Shown here in pieces: positions 12,931-19,903 of a stretch of DNA of 22,730 bases. The stretch is taken from positions 1-22,730 of the IMG/VR virus record IMGVR_UViG_3300010399_000388. The stretch is one strand, 5' to 3'. The position numbers and the translations under genes are program-made. The notes under the pieces are model-generated. The model did no database searches. It was not told where the DNA came from and saw only the letters and a program-made list of their open reading frames with translations. This DNA comes from a virus. Each line of letters starts with the position of its first letter. Position 1 is the first letter of the stretch.

Positions 12931-13824
12931 ATGGCAATCGGACGCGGAGCATTTGCTGCCCTTCTCAAGCCTGACCTGTTCCGGGTCTACGTTGAGACGG
13001 GTAAGGAACGGCCTCTTGAGTACACGCTGTTTTTCAACGTGGACGATATGCCGTGGAACCCCGTCAAGGACCAGCAGATTGCTGGTCTGGGCACGCTGCT
13101 CAGCATGCCGGAAGGCGAGAACTTCCCGCTCGATGAGCCGCGTCTCGGGGGCACCAAGGAGTACGAGGCTGCGCCTTTCGGGCTCGGCGTCGAGATCACC
13201 TGGCCGATGTGGCGAGACGATCAGTACGGCATTATGCGCGAGCTGGTTGCTGAACTGGCCCGCTCCTCACGGAACCGCCAGGAGGTCGATGCCTGGTCGG
13301 TCCTGAATAACGCTTTCGACAACGCCTTCCCCGGCTTTGACGGGGTCTCGCTGGCGAATACCGCGCACCCGCTGATCGGGGGCGGCACCGCCGCCAACCG
13401 ACCGACGCCCGATGTCGGCTTCAGCTCCCTGGCGATCCAGAACGCGCTCATCCGCTTCGAGAACATGCCGAACGAGCGTGGCCTCCCTCGCCTGCTGGCC
13501 CCGAACATGGTTCTCATCGCTCCGGAAAACAAGTTCCTGGCGCGGCAGATTCTGGGGACCTCCAAGCAGCCGTTCACGGCGCAGAACGAGATCAACCCGC
13601 TGATCCAGGATGATCTCAGCTGGATGGTCTGCCACTACTTCACGAACAGCGCGCAATGGTTCCTGACCTCGCGCGGCAACCATGACCTCCAGTTCCTCTT
13701 CCGCGATCGGCCCATCTTCGATGGCTTCGATGCTCCGTGGAACAAGAACGCGATCTTCACGGTCTATCAGCGCCACACCAAGGGCTTCGGCTCGTGGCGC
13801 GGGATCGATGGCTCCAGGCCATAA
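12931..13824 (+). CDS. major capsid protein (HK97-type fold)
   Basis: The 297-residue product begins after a strong ribosome binding site (TAAGGAGT). Features of HK97-fold capsid proteins of this group are visible. An N-terminal arm is followed by NAFDNAFPGFDGVSLANTAH and a HPLIGGGTAANRP segment near residue 150. LIAPENKFLARQILGTSKQP leads to INPLIQDDLSWMVCHYFTN and then AQWFLTS, with the aromatic-rich C-terminus PIFDGFDAPWNK. The protein builds the icosahedral shell. No protease domain is fused, and the separate upstream scaffold-like gene fits that. It is the anchor for reading this region as a head module. Confidence 0.87.
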   Translation: MAIGRGAFAALLKPDLFRVYVETGKERPLEYTLFFNVDDMPWNPVKDQQIAGLGTLLSMPEGENFPLDEPRLGGTKEYEAAPFGLGVEITWPMWRDDQYGIMRELVAELARSSRNRQEVDAWSVLNNAFDNAFPGFDGVSLANTAHPLIGGGTAANRPTPDVGFSSLAIQNALIRFENMPNERGLPRLLAPNMVLIAPENKFLARQILGTSKQPFTAQNEINPLIQDDLSWMVCHYFTNSAQWFLTSRGNHDLQFLFRDRPIFDGFDAPWNKNAIFTVYQRHTKGFGSWRGIDGSRP

Positions 13825-14691: not shown

Positions 14692-15013
14692 CCTCACGGT
14701 GGAACAGCTCCTCCAGGAGCGCGAGCGCCTGATGGCGCAGGCGAGCGCGATCAACGGCGCGCTCCAGTTTTGTGACTATCTCATCCGCCTGAAGACTGAG
14801 GCGTCAGATGTTCGTGCAACGAACGTCGCAGCCTCGGTCGCCTCTCAGAAAGAGCAGGGCAATGGAAACGAACGATCCCGTCCAGTTGGCGATGCAGATT
14901 CGGCAGGGGCGCTTACGCCTCGCCGAGCTTCCCGAAGCGTTACGGCCGCTCGTGCAGGCAGTCCTGACGCGCCTAACGGACGGGCAGGCGCAGACCCTCG
15001 CTTGCAGAGCTGA
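14672..15013 (+). CDS. small helical protein, overlapping the next gene
   Basis: The 113-residue frame starts at ATG 14672 inside the end of the beta-helix gene. Residues 1-60 are convincing: LTVEQLLQERERLMAQASAI then NGALQFCDYLIRLKTE form a coiled helix seen in small phage tail-region proteins. After about residue 63 the sequence is basic and unstructured, and its third codon positions lose the usual G/C bias, while the overlapping frame from 14862 keeps it. The last 50 residues may therefore be a recent read-through extension. Whether the real protein ends earlier cannot be decided from sequence. Confidence 0.55.
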   Translation: MAVDSTSLTVEQLLQERERLMAQASAINGALQFCDYLIRLKTEASDVRATNVAASVASQKEQGNGNERSRPVGDADSAGALTPRRASRSVTAARAGSPDAPNGRAGADPRLQS

Positions 15014-15065
15014 GCAGCGGCGCCCCTACCGCATCCGGTCTGCGTTCCAGCGGGCCGTCAGTTGA
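14862..15065 (+). CDS. small helical protein, overlapping the previous gene
   Basis: The 67-residue frame starts at ATG 14862 and overlaps the preceding frame by 152 bases. The first two thirds (METNDPVQLAMQIRQGRLRL, then AELPEALRPLVQAVL) are amphipathic helix with strong third-position G/C bias, so this frame is the likely true coding frame in the overlap. The last residues (RRPYRIRSAFQRAVS) are basic and less typical. It ends 14 bases before the HNH endonuclease gene. Function unknown. Confidence 0.55.
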   Translation: METNDPVQLAMQIRQGRLRLAELPEALRPLVQAVLTRLTDGQAQTLACRAEQRRPYRIRSAFQRAVS

Positions 15066-15079
15066 GGTAGGCTTCTGCC

Positions 15080-15499
15080 ATGCGTTCCCTGGAAGAGAAG
15101 CGGGAATGGGCTCAGCAATGGCGCGAGGCTCATCGAGCAATACAGCGTGCTCGCTGTAAGGCTTCCCGCGAAAAGCGTCTAGAGTATTACCGCGCCAAGG
15201 CACGCGAGTACTACCACGCCCATAAAGACCCAGTTCGCAAACGACACTTCTGGAAGAAGTTTGCCGTTTCACGGCGAGCGTTTGTGGATTGGGTCAAGAG
15301 TTCTCCTTGTATGGATTGTGGAGGGCTGTTTCCTCCTGAGTGTATGGATTTCGACCACCGTGATCCTTCTACGAAGACAAGGAATCCCAGCGCCCTTGCT
15401 GGCCTCGCTCGTCTCCAGGAAGAGATGACGAAGTGCGATCTCGTATGCTCAAACTGTCATCGTATTCGCACCAAGCGCGGAAGAAGGGTGGTTCAGTAA
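15080..15499 (+). CDS. free-standing HNH homing endonuclease with zinc fingers
   Basis: The 139-residue product has a basic, helical N-terminal half (about 1-60) likely to bind DNA, then an HNH nuclease core. Zinc pairs Cys77-x2-Cys80 and Cys123-x2-Cys126 frame the active site, with FDHRDP (Asp92, His93) and the closing NCHRIRTKRG. Such genes are mobile elements of phages that cut related genomes and spread by repair. It lies between two virion genes and disrupts neither. A hand count over 15181-15420 gives about 54% GC, below the virion genes. A ribosome binding site, GAGGTAGG, is at 15064-15071. Confidence 0.85.
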   Translation: MRSLEEKREWAQQWREAHRAIQRARCKASREKRLEYYRAKAREYYHAHKDPVRKRHFWKKFAVSRRAFVDWVKSSPCMDCGGLFPPECMDFDHRDPSTKTRNPSALAGLARLQEEMTKCDLVCSNCHRIRTKRGRRVVQ

Positions 15500-15500
15500 A

Positions 15501-16466
15501 ATGCCCTTGTCTGTCGATGACGTGGCGCGATCGGCATTGGCAGCAGTCGGCTCCAATGCGGGTCTTCTGTTAGCAATCAGATGGGCATCGGATCGTTTCC
15601 GCCAGTTGAGCAACCGGGGGAAACTCCGGGCGCTCCGGAAGGTAGATCAGCTGGTGATCCCTGCGGCCATCGAGGCAGGGCTCGCTACCGTCACCCGTGA
15701 CAGCGAACTGGTGACCGGGGACGCCACGGCTCAGGCGGCGTGGAACAGCGACCAGGTGGGCTGGTATTTCCGTGCGTCGCGGAACTGGTATCGGGTAGCC
15801 GGCGTCGAGCCGGACGGCTCGGGAGGCACGCGGCTTCGGCTGCATACGCAGTACACGGAGCCGACCGTCACCAAGAGCTACAAGCTGATCATGCGGCACA
15901 TCCGCCTCCCTGGGGATGTCCATATGCTCGGGCGCTTCGTGCATCAGCGCCTCTGGCGCCCAATCACGCACATCTCCCTCAACGAGCTGGACATGATGCA
16001 CCCGGAACGGCTGTTCGTGACGGGCAGCGGTCCGGAGCTGTGGGCCGAGGTGGGAGACGATGAAGACGGGACGCGGCTGATCGAGTTCTATCCGTATTCC
16101 ACGCTGACCGATTCGGTGCTGTTCTACTACTTCGCTCGCTCTCCCGAGCTGAAGCCGGGAGACCCGCTCCCGGATGACCTCACCACGGAGGCGCTGAAGG
16201 CGGGTATCCTGGTGGACATCTACCGCTTCGAGATGGCCAGGTCGCTTCGGGACAACAAGATCGAAGCCGCAGCGGTCTGGCGGAACGAGCTACGCGCGCA
16301 AGAGACCACGTGGGAAGACCGGATGGAGGAACTCCACCGGATCGATCGGAGCGCCGACGACATCTCGGTCATTCTCCACACCATGGGACCGCCCGTGCAG
16401 GGGGACCAAACTTGGATTAGAACCGCACGAGCAGATGCTTGGTCGAGGTTAACCAATTGGCCCTAG
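15501..16466 (+). CDS. head-tail connector/adaptor-like structural protein
   Basis: The 321-residue product begins one base after the HNH stop. The pattern DDVARSALAAVGSNAGLLLA, RWASDRFRQL and then an IEAGLATVTRDSELVTGD stretch is typical of a connector-like family in podovirus-type phages. That family sits between portal and tail. The region around VTKSYKLIMRHIRLPGDVHM and LIEFYPYSTLTDSVLFYY is beta-rich. The C-terminus is helical. Codons in the first 30 or so and last 20 residues (many T- or A-ending, with AGA and TTA) differ from the body, where the gene touches the two endonuclease genes. A role in joining head and tail is inferred. Confidence 0.65.
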   Translation: MPLSVDDVARSALAAVGSNAGLLLAIRWASDRFRQLSNRGKLRALRKVDQLVIPAAIEAGLATVTRDSELVTGDATAQAAWNSDQVGWYFRASRNWYRVAGVEPDGSGGTRLRLHTQYTEPTVTKSYKLIMRHIRLPGDVHMLGRFVHQRLWRPITHISLNELDMMHPERLFVTGSGPELWAEVGDDEDGTRLIEFYPYSTLTDSVLFYYFARSPELKPGDPLPDDLTTEALKAGILVDIYRFEMARSLRDNKIEAAAVWRNELRAQETTWEDRMEELHRIDRSADDISVILHTMGPPVQGDQTWIRTARADAWSRLTNWP

Positions 16467-16474
16467 GAGAGGAA

Positions 16475-16939
16475 ATGCTGATCACCCTACGACATGTGGA
16501 ATGGCTCGCCGGTCTTTTGGAGGGGGAAGGCTATTTCGCATCAACTGGCACAGGGCGTCGATATGCCGCTATCTGTTTGCAAATGACGGATCGAGACGTT
16601 GTCGAACGTGCAGCAGGGTTGTTGGGTAGCAGGGTTACGTTCCAACTCAAGCGTCCTGGGCAGACAAAACACGTGTGGCGAACTACGGCAGGCGGGCATC
16701 GCGCCATTGGCTGGATGATGACGTTATATCCACTCATGGGCGAAAGGCGTAAGGCACAGATTCGGCTTGTTCTCGCAATGTGGCGTTCCTGGCCCGCACG
16801 TCGCACCAAGCGTTGTGGCGCCGACAAGGGACCAATTCACCGCCACGATTCAAAGAGAAGCGGGTTGCCCCCAATTCCTAACTATTACAAAGACTGCAAA
16901 GGCTGTCGTTCGTTCAATGAACGGCCGACTGTACATTAA
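16475..16939 (+). CDS. LAGLIDADG-family homing endonuclease (free-standing)
   Basis: ATG 16475 is chosen because AGGAGAGG (16465-16472) lies just upstream; an earlier ATG (16439) overlaps the previous gene. The 154-residue product has one LAGLIDADG motif at residues 10-21 (WLAGLLEGEGYF) with the expected acidic residues, so it should act as a homodimer. A C-terminal cluster (Cys114, Cys141-x2-Cys144 in YKDCKGC) may bind zinc. Members of this family cut long DNA sites and spread into uninfected copies. The stop TAA abuts the next gene directly (TAA then TTG). GC in sampled lines is about 54%. Confidence 0.82.
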   Translation: MLITLRHVEWLAGLLEGEGYFASTGTGRRYAAICLQMTDRDVVERAAGLLGSRVTFQLKRPGQTKHVWRTTAGGHRAIGWMMTLYPLMGERRKAQIRLVLAMWRSWPARRTKRCGADKGPIHRHDSKRSGLPPIPNYYKDCKGCRSFNERPTVH

Positions 16940-17557
16940 TTGGGCACGCTGGCCGGCAATGCGCTCATCGACGAACTTTCTCGCCGACTGCGTGATCTTA
17001 CTTCTACTGGCTATCCTCGTGCGGATATTCTTGACATCGTCAATCGCACCCAGCGAGCTATTAACGCGCGACTGGGGCTTGTTCACACATCGACCGCCTT
17101 CTCTACAGGAGAAACACCGCTCTACTCCGTAGACGCGATTGCCACCAACATCGTCCGCGTGGTGGATGTCCGCGACGATGACCGTCCGCTCCAGCGTGTT
17201 CCCTGGCCGCAGCTGGTCCATCAGGACCCCAAGTGGATACGACTCCGGGGCACCCCAGAAGTCTGGTCCCCGATCGGGCGGACGATGATTGCGGTGATCC
17301 CCACACCGTACATCACGCGGAGCCTCACCGCCGTCTCGATCAAGATGACCTCGAATCTGGCGGATGCGGGCGCTCCACTGCTCGACATCCCCGACGACTT
17401 CAAGCCGATTCTGCTCGATCTGGCGGAAGCGGTGCTTCTGGTCCGCGCTCGGGAGTTCAAAATGATCGAGGCCGCGCTCACGCGCGTTCTGCCTGCGCTC
17501 GGGATGAGCGTGGACATGCAGAACCAGCGGCGTGGTGGCGATAAGGCGCACGGCTGA
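16940..17557 (+). CDS. head-tail adaptor-like protein (TTG start)
   Basis: The 205-residue product has to start at TTG 16940, directly after the endonuclease stop, because no other normal start is available in frame for over 150 codons. The N-terminal LIDELSRRLRDLTSTGYPRA, then DILDIVNRTQRAINARLG, is the classical helical start of phage adaptor proteins that dock under the portal. The following beta-rich part (PLYSVDAIATNIVRVVDVRD) also fits. No ribosome binding site is visible, so translation may depend on reinitiation from the endonuclease gene. The first 40 or so codons are unusually rich in T-ending forms, unlike the rest. Confidence 0.7.
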   Translation: MGTLAGNALIDELSRRLRDLTSTGYPRADILDIVNRTQRAINARLGLVHTSTAFSTGETPLYSVDAIATNIVRVVDVRDDDRPLQRVPWPQLVHQDPKWIRLRGTPEVWSPIGRTMIAVIPTPYITRSLTAVSIKMTSNLADAGAPLLDIPDDFKPILLDLAEAVLLVRAREFKMIEAALTRVLPALGMSVDMQNQRRGGDKAHG

Positions 17558-18195
17558 TGGCAAACGCCGCAGTCACCACCCTCATCAATCGCGTCGTGGG
17601 GAACTCGATCTCCACGCTGATCGATTCGACCGCTACGGACAACTACCAGCACGATGTCATCTACGAGATCGCCCGTGGGGCATTCCCGGGGTTCCTGGCC
17701 CAAACGGATGCCACGTTCATCGCGCTCACCCGCGGCACGGTGGAGTACAGCTTTCCGACCGGGTTTCGCCTGCCGCTGATGATCGTGTTCGATGATACCC
17801 AGCTGGCGCATGCGCGCTTCGATGAGGCGCTCAACTTCTCCCAGGACTGGAGGAATACGGCGACGAAGCCGATTGCCTACATCCAGGACCCCGTGGACCG
17901 GGACAAGTTCCAGTTAATCCCGCCATCCAACTACGCGAGCGCAGGCGTTGCGGGAACGCCGTTGGCACCCCCGACCCCGTGGCCCACGGAGGCGCTCGCC
18001 TTCATCGGAACCGAGTCGAATACAGGGTGGGCGGAAAGCTGCCTCGTGGATACGCACCTCGCACTCGCCTTCGAGGTCATCGCGCGGGAGTTCTCGCGGG
18101 ACAGCGACCACAAGGACTCCGATCTGGCCACGCTCGCCAAGACATTTGCGGGGGTCTTCTGGCAGATGTCGTTTGCGGAGGGAATGGATGTCTAA
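17557..18195 (+). CDS. second adaptor-like connector/tail structural protein
   Basis: The 212-residue product starts on an ATG overlapping the previous stop (TGATG). An N-terminal helix-rich part (YQHDVIYEIARGAFPGFLAQ) is followed by a beta-rich core with GTVEYSFPTGFRLPLMIVFD and a PIAYIQDPVDRDKFQLIPP stretch. The C-terminal part is helical (LALAFEVIAREFSRDSDHKD). The domain order parallels the connector proteins before it, so it is probably another ring or adaptor in the neck or tail tube. Exact family not recognised. It overlaps the next gene by eight bases. Confidence 0.6.
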   Translation: MANAAVTTLINRVVGNSISTLIDSTATDNYQHDVIYEIARGAFPGFLAQTDATFIALTRGTVEYSFPTGFRLPLMIVFDDTQLAHARFDEALNFSQDWRNTATKPIAYIQDPVDRDKFQLIPPSNYASAGVAGTPLAPPTPWPTEALAFIGTESNTGWAESCLVDTHLALAFEVIAREFSRDSDHKDSDLATLAKTFAGVFWQMSFAEGMDV

Positions 18196-19153
18196 CCTCC
18201 ACAAGCGTCCCCCGGTGGGGGAGAGGCGGGTGCGGCAGTTCCGCGTGAACCCTCCCGATCCCAACAAGGCGGACTCCCAGGTCAAGTTCACCGCGAAGCT
18301 GAACCAGCAGTTCTCGCTGATCTCCGATGAACTCACCAGGCTGCCCAAGTTCCCCAAGGGCTATTCGATCGACGACTATGCTCGGAAAGATGAGGTCGAG
18401 GAGATCATTGATCGGCTCGATGAACAGGCGTTCGATCTGGTCTCCAGCGAGGGAGACGAAGAGGTCGACGTAGGCGCCGGCCGGCGTGCGGCGCAGGCCC
18501 GTAGCTCTCGGCGGCGGCATCGTGCCGCCCAGGCCGCCGAGGCGGCCGCCACTGCGGCGCTGGAGTCTGCGCGGCCGCTGGTCGCCCCACCCGAGATCGA
18601 AGACGTCAGCAACATTGGCACCGCCAATACGCCTCCGAGATTCTCATACGAGGACCACACCCACAGCGGCGTGAATCTCGGCGATGCCCAGACGATCACC
18701 GGGCTCAAGACCTTCGATCGCGACCCGGCAGCGCCATTCGCCGTCACAAGCGGGAGCGCGAAGGTTAACAACCTCCGCGGGGAGATGGTCACCCGCAAGA
18801 ACAGCGGGGGTGCGGACTTCGTCCGTGGGCGGATCAACTTCATCGAGGGAACCGACATCACGATCTCGATGTCCGACGATGCGGGCAACGATGAGATCGA
18901 CCTGACGATCAACAGCACGCCGGGGACCGCCACGCAGCTCCGGGCGTTTCCGATCCTCATTGGCACACCAATGCCCATGGCGCAGGGGACGGCACGGCGA
19001 CCGAACCGCGGCACCTACGGCACGGCATCGGACGTTCCGGTTATAACCGTAGACGCGAACGGCAGAGTTACGGCTTTAACCACAACGCCGCTTGGCAGCG
19101 GCACCGAGATGGACCCGACGTTCAAGAAGCATATGCTGTTCATGGGGGGATAA
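18188..19153 (+). CDS. fibre-like tail protein with coiled-coil and fibre motifs
   Basis: The start is ATG 18188, overlapping the previous gene by eight bases; the frame is open further upstream, but that part lies antiparallel in logic to the connector gene and is not believed. The 321-residue product has a basic N-terminus and a helical, alanine/arginine-rich stretch (about 80-130). Fibre motifs follow: YEDHTHSGVNLGDAQTITGL, then GTYGTASDVPVITVDANGRV. These repeat types are common in phage tail fibres and mark beta-rich, trimeric shafts. Its stop overlaps the next gene's start (TAATG). The codons near 19035-19090 (ATA, AGA, TTA) are unusual for this gene. Confidence 0.7.
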   Translation: MSNLHKRPPVGERRVRQFRVNPPDPNKADSQVKFTAKLNQQFSLISDELTRLPKFPKGYSIDDYARKDEVEEIIDRLDEQAFDLVSSEGDEEVDVGAGRRAAQARSSRRRHRAAQAAEAAATAALESARPLVAPPEIEDVSNIGTANTPPRFSYEDHTHSGVNLGDAQTITGLKTFDRDPAAPFAVTSGSAKVNNLRGEMVTRKNSGGADFVRGRINFIEGTDITISMSDDAGNDEIDLTINSTPGTATQLRAFPILIGTPMPMAQGTARRPNRGTYGTASDVPVITVDANGRVTALTTTPLGSGTEMDPTFKKHMLFMGG

Positions 19154-19572
19154 TGGCGCGCTATCGAGATAGACGAGCATACAATCGCGAATGGTATGCC
19201 AAGAACCTGGAACGCGAACGCGAGAAACGGCGACGACGTATTAAAGAACGGCGTGCGGCGGGTTCCAATTGGCCGAGCGACTCTCCGGCATACCGGCGGC
19301 GGATCGTGTTGCAAAGCCGATATCAATTGACTCCAGAAAGATTTGAAGCATTGATCACAATGCAGGGTCATGCCTGCGCTATGCAGGACTGTCGGTCCGC
19401 CACCCCTGGAGGTCATGGCCAATGGCATATTGATCATGATCATGTCAGTGGACAGGTACGTGGGTTGTTGTGTTCACGATGTAATCTGATGTTGGGCCAT
19501 TACGAAAAGGGGCAGCGTCGGTGGACTGCGTTTGAGGATTATCTTAACAAGTACCAACGGAAGGTAGCATAA
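19153..19572 (+). CDS. endonuclease VII-like HNH homing nuclease
   Basis: The 139-residue product starts on an ATG overlapping the fibre stop (TAATG). A very basic N-terminal region (KNLEREREKRRRRIKERRAA) leads to YQLTPERFEALITMQGHACA. Then comes the His-Me finger core HIDHDHVSGQVRGLLCSRC (His92 to Cys110) with a following NLMLGHY, the arrangement of recombination endonuclease VII-type enzymes. The first zinc pair is spaced Cys75-x4-Cys80, wider than the usual C-x2-C, whereas the second is normal (Cys107-x2-Cys110). GC over 19321-19560 is 49% by hand count. It is probably a mobile endonuclease that occupies a gene junction. Confidence 0.85.
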   Translation: MARYRDRRAYNREWYAKNLEREREKRRRRIKERRAAGSNWPSDSPAYRRRIVLQSRYQLTPERFEALITMQGHACAMQDCRSATPGGHGQWHIDHDHVSGQVRGLLCSRCNLMLGHYEKGQRRWTAFEDYLNKYQRKVA

Positions 19573-19573
19573 A

Positions 19574-19903
19574 ATGGCGGAGAGCTTAAAAGTCCTGGGA
19601 CAAACGAACCCAAGCGCCGCGTCGCTCACCGATTCCTATACCGTTCCGGGCGCAACCAGCGCGGTCGTGAGTTCGATCACGGTGGCGAATCGCTCCGCGA
19701 CACCGACGAGCTTTCGTGTCAGCATTGCGGTGGCGGGTGCAGCGAACAGTAACGAACAGTATCTGTTTTTCGATGTCCCGATCGCTGGAAACGACACCTT
19801 TACGGCGACCTTAGGGATCGGTCTCGCCACCACCGACGTGGTGCGTGTCTACGCGACGCTGGCAACATTGTCGTTCAACATCTTTGGAATCGAAGTGACG
19901 TAA
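19574..19903 (+). CDS. small beta-rich virion protein
   Basis: The 109-residue product starts one base after the nuclease stop. It is nearly all beta-type: SLTDSYTVPGATSAVVSSIT, then VANRSATPTSFRVSIAVAGA, then NEQYLFFDVPIAGNDTFTAT. This sequence pattern recurs in small structural proteins near tail genes of many phages; the exact role is unknown. The first ten codons (AGC TTA AAA GTC CTG GGA CAA) are less GC-rich than the rest, on the side that touches the nuclease. It precedes the collagen-like fibre gene by three bases. Confidence 0.7.
   Translation: MAESLKVLGQTNPSAASLTDSYTVPGATSAVVSSITVANRSATPTSFRVSIAVAGAANSNEQYLFFDVPIAGNDTFTATLGIGLATTDVVRVYATLATLSFNIFGIEVT

Follow-up and report, generated by a model that had tools for sequence, protein, structure and literature searches.

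Free-standing homing genes of phage T4 lie between conserved genes, one of them being segD at the 23/24 junction (PMC2988022). Homing genes belonging to several families are already on record close to structural genes (PMC10448857; PMC2988022; PMC12724721), as is a homing enzyme with the endonuclease VII (EndoVII) motif (PMC6083498). The locus considered here is part of the virus record IMGVR_UViG_3300010399_000388 of IMG/VR, which was analysed as a complete record of 22,730 nt (the window). The phage is uncultured, tailed and SU10-like, with a portal of SU10 type (PF23899) and two tandem SU10-adaptor-like genes. Three genes in its virion operon, on the plus strand like all the neighbours described below, are predicted to encode homing-type endonucleases: an HNH gene (15080-15499, 139 aa), a LAGLIDADG gene (16475-16939, 154 aa) and an EndoVII-motif gene (19153-19572, 139 aa). 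Very probably they are optional, horizontally acquired, free-standing genes of the homing type in junctions of the operon, and most likely they entered separately. The evidence for this consists of family membership by sequence, intact motifs, empty sites in relatives, foreign composition, and use of some of the junctions by different nuclease families.

The original prediction for this DNA, made before any database search, placed three open reading frames (ORFs) at these positions and assigned their products to nuclease families. The ORFs are present, and the assignments are borne out by PHROG 3106 (E=5e-22) for the HNH protein, by phrog_5046 (2e-16) and LAGLIDADG_3 (7e-4) for the LAGLIDADG protein, and by PF02945 (1.7e-18, residues 53-132) for the EndoVII protein. 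For the first two, the family calls rest on PHROGs, profiles and motifs, and for the LAGLIDADG protein on a predicted fold also. The HNH protein has a CxxC/DFDH/CxNC motif, with the zinc cysteines and the catalytic histidine conserved in 19 relatives; C77, C80, H93, C123, N125, C126 and H127 are invariant across the 20 sequences. The family profile matches the HNH enzyme 4h9d (6e-4). The structure model of this protein has a mean predicted local distance difference test (pLDDT) score of 90.7, and its Foldseek matches, which are weak and non-significant, include the HNH enzymes 4h9d, Cap5 and T4 EndoVII. In the LAGLIDADG protein there is, as predicted, a single motif, LAGLLEGEG, whose E16-G17-E18 are invariant in ten relatives. 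A profile built from the ten matches I-HjeMI (4e-7) and I-AniI (7e-7) in the PDB. The order alpha-beta-beta-alpha-beta-beta-alpha is seen in the AlphaFold model (mean pLDDT 79, high at residues 1-100), which Foldseek matches to I-HjeMI and I-Vdi141I with a probability of 1.00. PHROG 5046 is labelled HNH endonuclease, while its member in the window has the LAGLIDADG motif and fold; many cultured-phage relatives of the protein carry the LAGLIDADG annotation. The EndoVII protein has the complete set of CX4C, DHDH, R, CX2C and N (CAMQDC ... HIDHDHVSGQVRGLLCSRCN) in its C-terminal half, and T4 EndoVII aligns across the same core. A search of viral contigs for close relatives of the EndoVII protein found nothing. 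The three proteins had been credited with three unrelated folds; the number should be two, because HNH and EndoVII are members of one superfamily, beta-beta-alpha-metal (PMC6083498). A recent duplication linking these two genes was considered and ruled out, as BLASTP gave no meaningful alignment.

All three genes fit tightly between virion genes. The HNH gene starts 14 nt after the stop of g14808 and ends 1 nt before the connector gene Hc. A gap of 8 nt separates Hc from the LAGLIDADG gene, whose stop abuts the start of the adaptor-like gene Ad1 (0 nt). At the EndoVII gene, there is a 1-nt overlap with the stop of g18188 upstream and a gap of 1 nt to g19574 downstream. None of the flanking ORFs is truncated, the alignments of Hc and Ad1 being full length, and an Rfam search of the window found no intron. 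The genes are free-standing, since there is neither an intron nor an interrupted ORF. An intron or intein as carrier of the nuclease genes was ruled out on the same grounds.

Base composition sets the three genes apart from the rest of the window. Among the 26 genes compared, they have the lowest GC content and the lowest GC content at third codon positions (GC3). The GC3 is 0.536 for HNH, 0.535 for LAGLIDADG and 0.493 for EndoVII vs 0.757 ± 0.043 for the other genes, whose minimum is 0.679. Of 1,975 windows of 420 nt taken from the rest of the record, none has a GC content as low as that of the nuclease genes, and the low GC of these genes is not due to chance. When junction inserts of relatives were added (13 distinct inserts, including the three of the window), the GC3 was below that of the neighbouring virion gene in 13/13 (sign test, 1e-4).

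Relatives of the window were gathered through searches with the major capsid protein (MCP) followed by alignments, and 80 of 188 MCP relatives were kept; they are given here by locus number (L002 and so on). Hc or Ad1 of the window used alone as a query found no relatives. In close relatives (MCP 85-91% identical) the same neighbour genes are present and the junctions are empty. In L002 (MCP 91%), the spacing is 13 nt between g14808 and Hc and 9 nt between Hc and Ad1. In L006, all three insertion sites of the window are empty, and in L009 the EndoVII junction is empty, with a spacing of 3 nt. The g14808|Hc junction is empty in L002, L004, L006 and L011. Of 31 loci compared at Hc|Ad1, 17 have a gap of <=125 nt and 12 a longer gap or another ORF. 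The remaining two carry a nuclease gene, namely the LAGLIDADG gene of the window and, in L095 (10914-11348), an HNH gene from the same family as that of the window (46% identity; profile E 8e-33). In a set of 19 related records, a single EndoVII gene was found, and the PHROG families of the window's HNH and LAGLIDADG genes were not represented. With junctions empty in L002, L004, L006, L009, L011 and others, the presence of the nuclease genes is sporadic; they are not fixed, co-evolving genes of all relatives.

The relatives also bear on how the inserts fit their sites. The original prediction held that each gene sits in a junction and breaks no virion gene. This is true of the flanking ORFs, which are intact, and needs qualifying at two places. 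Ad1 starts with TTG, and Hc has lost its leader to the insert: the start of the HNH gene coincides with the leader that precedes Hc in L002 and L004 (GAGGTAGGCTTCTGCCATG in the window, AAGGTAGACTGAGCCATG in L002). The HNH gene therefore appears to have taken over the ancestral Hc leader and to use the old ribosome-binding site of Hc.

The empty junctions weaken the proposal that the proteins are working virion or packaging enzymes, with the HNH protein acting like terminase-associated HNH proteins and the EndoVII protein as a Holliday-junction resolvase for packaging. HNH genes at terL-portal are universal in Skunavirus and are thought to act in packaging (PMC12724721), and T4 EndoVII is a resolvase (PMC6083498). 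However, relatives with the same virion genes do without these nuclease genes, and the HNH gene of the window is in the connector region, not adjoining the terminase. In the EndoVII family, a C-terminal motif marks the homing/endonuclease clade and an N-terminal one the resolvase clade (PMC6083498). The placement of the motif in the C-terminal half of the window's protein fits the homing clade and argues against a resolvase. We regard a packaging role as highly improbable.

Nuclease genes occupy other junctions of the module in relatives. HNH_3 genes lie immediately 5' of the MCP gene in L016, L020 and L081 (mutual identity 45-53%) and 3' of it in L075. LAGLIDADG genes lie immediately 5' of the MCP gene in L116 and L129/L130, the copies of L129 and L130 being identical, and 3' of it in L100 and L117. 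Counting both MCP-flanking junctions, eight distinct relatives thus carry a gene of the HNH_3 or LAGLIDADG type there. An EndoVII gene is found at terL|portal in L112 (3791-4066, between the terminase and portal genes); it is very AT-rich (GC3 0.185). The relatives found have at most one clear nuclease gene each in the module, which makes the cluster of three in the window unusual. Arrival of the three genes as a single block was considered, and no evidence for it was found; relatives have single nuclease genes at single junctions.

Three side observations concern the same neighbourhoods. In L117 (3262-4759), the MCP C-terminus is unlike that of relatives where the LAGLIDADG ORF begins, possibly through an insert-driven exchange of the 3' end. 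In L113 (4406-5306), MCP homology falls in two overlapping pieces, possibly owing to a frameshift or a sequence error. In L095, a weak EndoVII match of 25 residues (E 1e-4) in a short ORF that closely follows the MCP gene, some 945-1019 nt 3' of the MCP start, is possibly the remnant of a decayed insert.

The connector region had been proposed as a favoured landing zone. Nuclease gene density was compared over 68 records, with the duplicate L082 dropped and the window then taken out of the counts; the records were fetched through MCP, and the densities depend on that. The virion module as a whole shows no significant enrichment: it has 8 nuclease genes in 0.64 Mb, and the DNA outside it has 7 in 1.03 Mb (p=0.17). 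The stretches up to 700 nt from the MCP gene make up about 6% of the DNA searched and contain 6 of the 15 nuclease genes (p=1e-4, or 0.005 if the three same-site HNH_3 genes count as one event). The LAGLIDADG genes of L116 and L129/L130, which are seen only with a profile from the MCP-flanking copies, were omitted from these tests. What stands of the landing-zone idea is that the MCP flanks and Hc|Ad1 are used repeatedly. The reason offered for it, good conservation of the connector genes, does not hold: identity to L002 is 61% for Hc, 48% for Ad1, 38% for Ad2 and 39% for g18188 vs 71% for portal and 91% for MCP. The connector genes being less conserved than MCP and portal, conservation is not why insertions are found there. 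In T4, the targets of free-standing enzymes are hundreds to thousands of bases from the gene (PMC2988022). Insertion sites in the present group may be set by the targets of the enzymes, with tolerance at stop-start junctions acting as a further filter. In cultured phages, the nearest relatives of the three proteins are found mostly outside virion modules.

Tolerance could be the whole explanation if the junctions took any gene by illegitimate recombination and nuclease genes were simply common among small phage genes, with no targeted homing. Unrelated ORFs are present at Hc|Ad1 and g14808|Hc in L003, L009, L071, L074, L078, L081, L087 and L113, and the module as a whole is not significantly enriched. 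The clustering at the MCP flanks, which involves two families, speaks against this proposal, and we consider it unlikely. Some of the same facts, with others, weigh against the homing-gene interpretation. The non-nuclease ORFs are at Hc|Ad1 in L009, L081, L087 and L113 and at g14808|Hc in L003. In L003 (2551-3282), a 243-aa ORF without Pfam matches occupies the junction of the window's HNH gene, and in L009 (11131-11781) a 216-aa ORF, also without Pfam matches, occupies that of the LAGLIDADG gene. Since several junctions host such ORFs, plain tolerance of insertions may account for part of the pattern. A nearly identical pair of phages with and without the nuclease genes was not found among the relatives, and no recent homing event was therefore observed directly. 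The Pfam HNH score of the HNH protein is weak (E=0.15) and under the curated cut-off, and the LAGLIDADG_3 match, at 20.2 bits, is slightly below its cut-off of 22.5.

The spread of the three genes as homing genes would probably follow the course taken by seg and mob of T4. The nuclease gene would be expressed as part of the late message, and in a mixed infection the enzyme would cut the co-infecting genome that is without the gene. Repair from the carrier genome would then copy the nuclease gene plus flanking DNA. Stop-start junctions would be tolerated sites because an insert there simply adds one cistron to the late message. Expression of the HNH gene would be via the ancestral Hc leader, and each insert ends at the restart of the next virion gene, the junction sequences being TAAAATG for HNH, TAATTG for LAGLIDADG and TAAAATG for EndoVII. 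In this scheme we infer cutting activity, target sites, homing and expression. The same cutting could instead serve interference, if the nucleases had been co-opted to cut virion genes of competing phages and were retained for that benefit and not by selfishness alone. Three nuclease genes lie within one operon of essential virion genes, the active-site residues are intact in all three proteins, and precedents are provided by marker exclusion by lactococcal HNH enzymes (PMC12724721) and by the intron nuclease of PhiPA3 (PMC11620839). Sporadic presence and foreign GC3 are points against co-option, which we hold to be possible although rather doubtful; sequence cannot separate it from homing because the same cutting serves both.

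The start codons downstream of inserts are unusual in four cases (window 16937-16942; L016 7995; L020 3554; L081 8001). The MCP start is GTG in L016, TTG in L020 and GTG in L081, each with an HNH_3 gene immediately upstream, and it is ATG in relatives without an upstream nuclease gene, with L097 as the sole exception. The last codons of these HNH_3 genes contain the apparent Shine-Dalgarno sequence of MCP (AGGAGG in L016, 7980-7997; GGGAGGG in L020, 3533-3556; AAGGAG in L081, 7985-8003). In the window, the TTG of Ad1 comes right after the LAGLIDADG stop and has no clear Shine-Dalgarno sequence; almost all relatives have ATG here. The counts of ATG relatives (about 96/98) were read by eye. ATG is retained downstream of a nuclease gene in MCP of L116 and L129/L130, in Ad1 of L095, and in Hc and g19574 of the window. 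The association, which involves small numbers, gives a Fisher p of 2e-4 and weakens to 0.016 when the three HNH_3 cases count as a single event. In the more distant nuclease relatives L036, L052, L057 and L059, the downstream starts resemble ordinary ATG, and no general start-codon rule is therefore claimed. That some nuclease genes are accompanied by an ATG to GTG/TTG swap in the next virion gene is offered as a lead only, and one we think improbable. If true, the swap could keep the nuclease from cutting its own genome by masking a target at the start codon, and the protein would not suffer. Alternatively, an essential virion gene could become linked to the nuclease gene in its translation, which would make the nuclease gene hard to lose.

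The genes around the inserts belong to the virion module. The MCP gene (12931-13824; PF25209, 3e-12) has both flanking junctions empty in the window and nuclease-occupied in relatives; its cultured relatives are distant, with identity <=30%. The small conserved virion-module gene g14808 (14808-15065), 5' of the HNH gene, has same-position homologues in L002, L003, L004, L006, L009, L011 and others. Hc (15501-16466), between the HNH and LAGLIDADG genes, has a weak similarity to the head closure family phrog_82 (E=0.003) and full-length orthologues in >30 relatives. Ad1 (16940-17557; PF24175, 5e-11) is in the same frame as the LAGLIDADG gene, and with Ad2 (17557-18195; PF24175, 3e-5) it forms a tandem pair of one Pfam family (16940-18195). 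The conserved gene g18188 (18188-19153), 5' of the EndoVII gene, is 36-39% identical to its homologues in L002, L006 and L009. The virion-module gene g19574 (19574-19903; phrog_1276, 5e-9), 3' of the EndoVII gene, has orthologues in L006 (61%) and L009 (47%) immediately 3' of the g18188 homologue. A nucleotide search of the window against annotated phages gave no match. The MCP-Hc-Ad1-Ad2 order is also present in L131 (MCP 61%), a contig binned as candidate division TA06, which is possibly a hint to the host or phage DNA in the bin.

With these results, an uncultured SU10-like phage group joins the phages in which homing genes of several families are known next to structural genes. Occupied and empty sites form a natural series across its junctions, comprising terL|portal, the two flanks of MCP, g14808|Hc, Hc|Ad1 and g18188|g19574, and single junctions are seen to be used by two unrelated nuclease folds. 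The series could help in locating cutting sites; the general view is unchanged. The likeness to seg and mob of T4 is in cassettes that occupy intergenic junctions between conserved genes, several of them on the message of their neighbours, and that are absent from relatives (PMC2988022). However, the T4 set is made up of GIY-YIG and HNH genes, unlike the HNH, LAGLIDADG and EndoVII-motif set of the window, and cutting and mobility have been demonstrated for several T4 genes whereas those of the window are known from sequence. The homing endonuclease gene (HEG) clusters or "HEG islands" of Barth et al. (2023), beside structural, terminase and replication genes, likewise bring together nucleases of several families around the same essential genes, and capsid neighbourhoods are common among them; that survey centred on T5orf172 and IPA-HNH in sequenced phages, whereas the window represents an uncultured group with other families (PMC10448857). 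The Skunavirus HNH genes, which occupy fixed insertion positions, share variable presence, repeated junctions and the lack of an intron, but they are I-HmuI-like and mostly in the replication module, not in the virion module as here (PMC12724721). The EndoVII-motif protein resembles the F-CphI/DHHRN family of cyanophage S-PM2 in having CX2-4C, DHDH, R, CX2C and N in the C-terminal half and in being free-standing, but F-CphI works with an adjacent group I intron, and the window is without one (PMC6083498).

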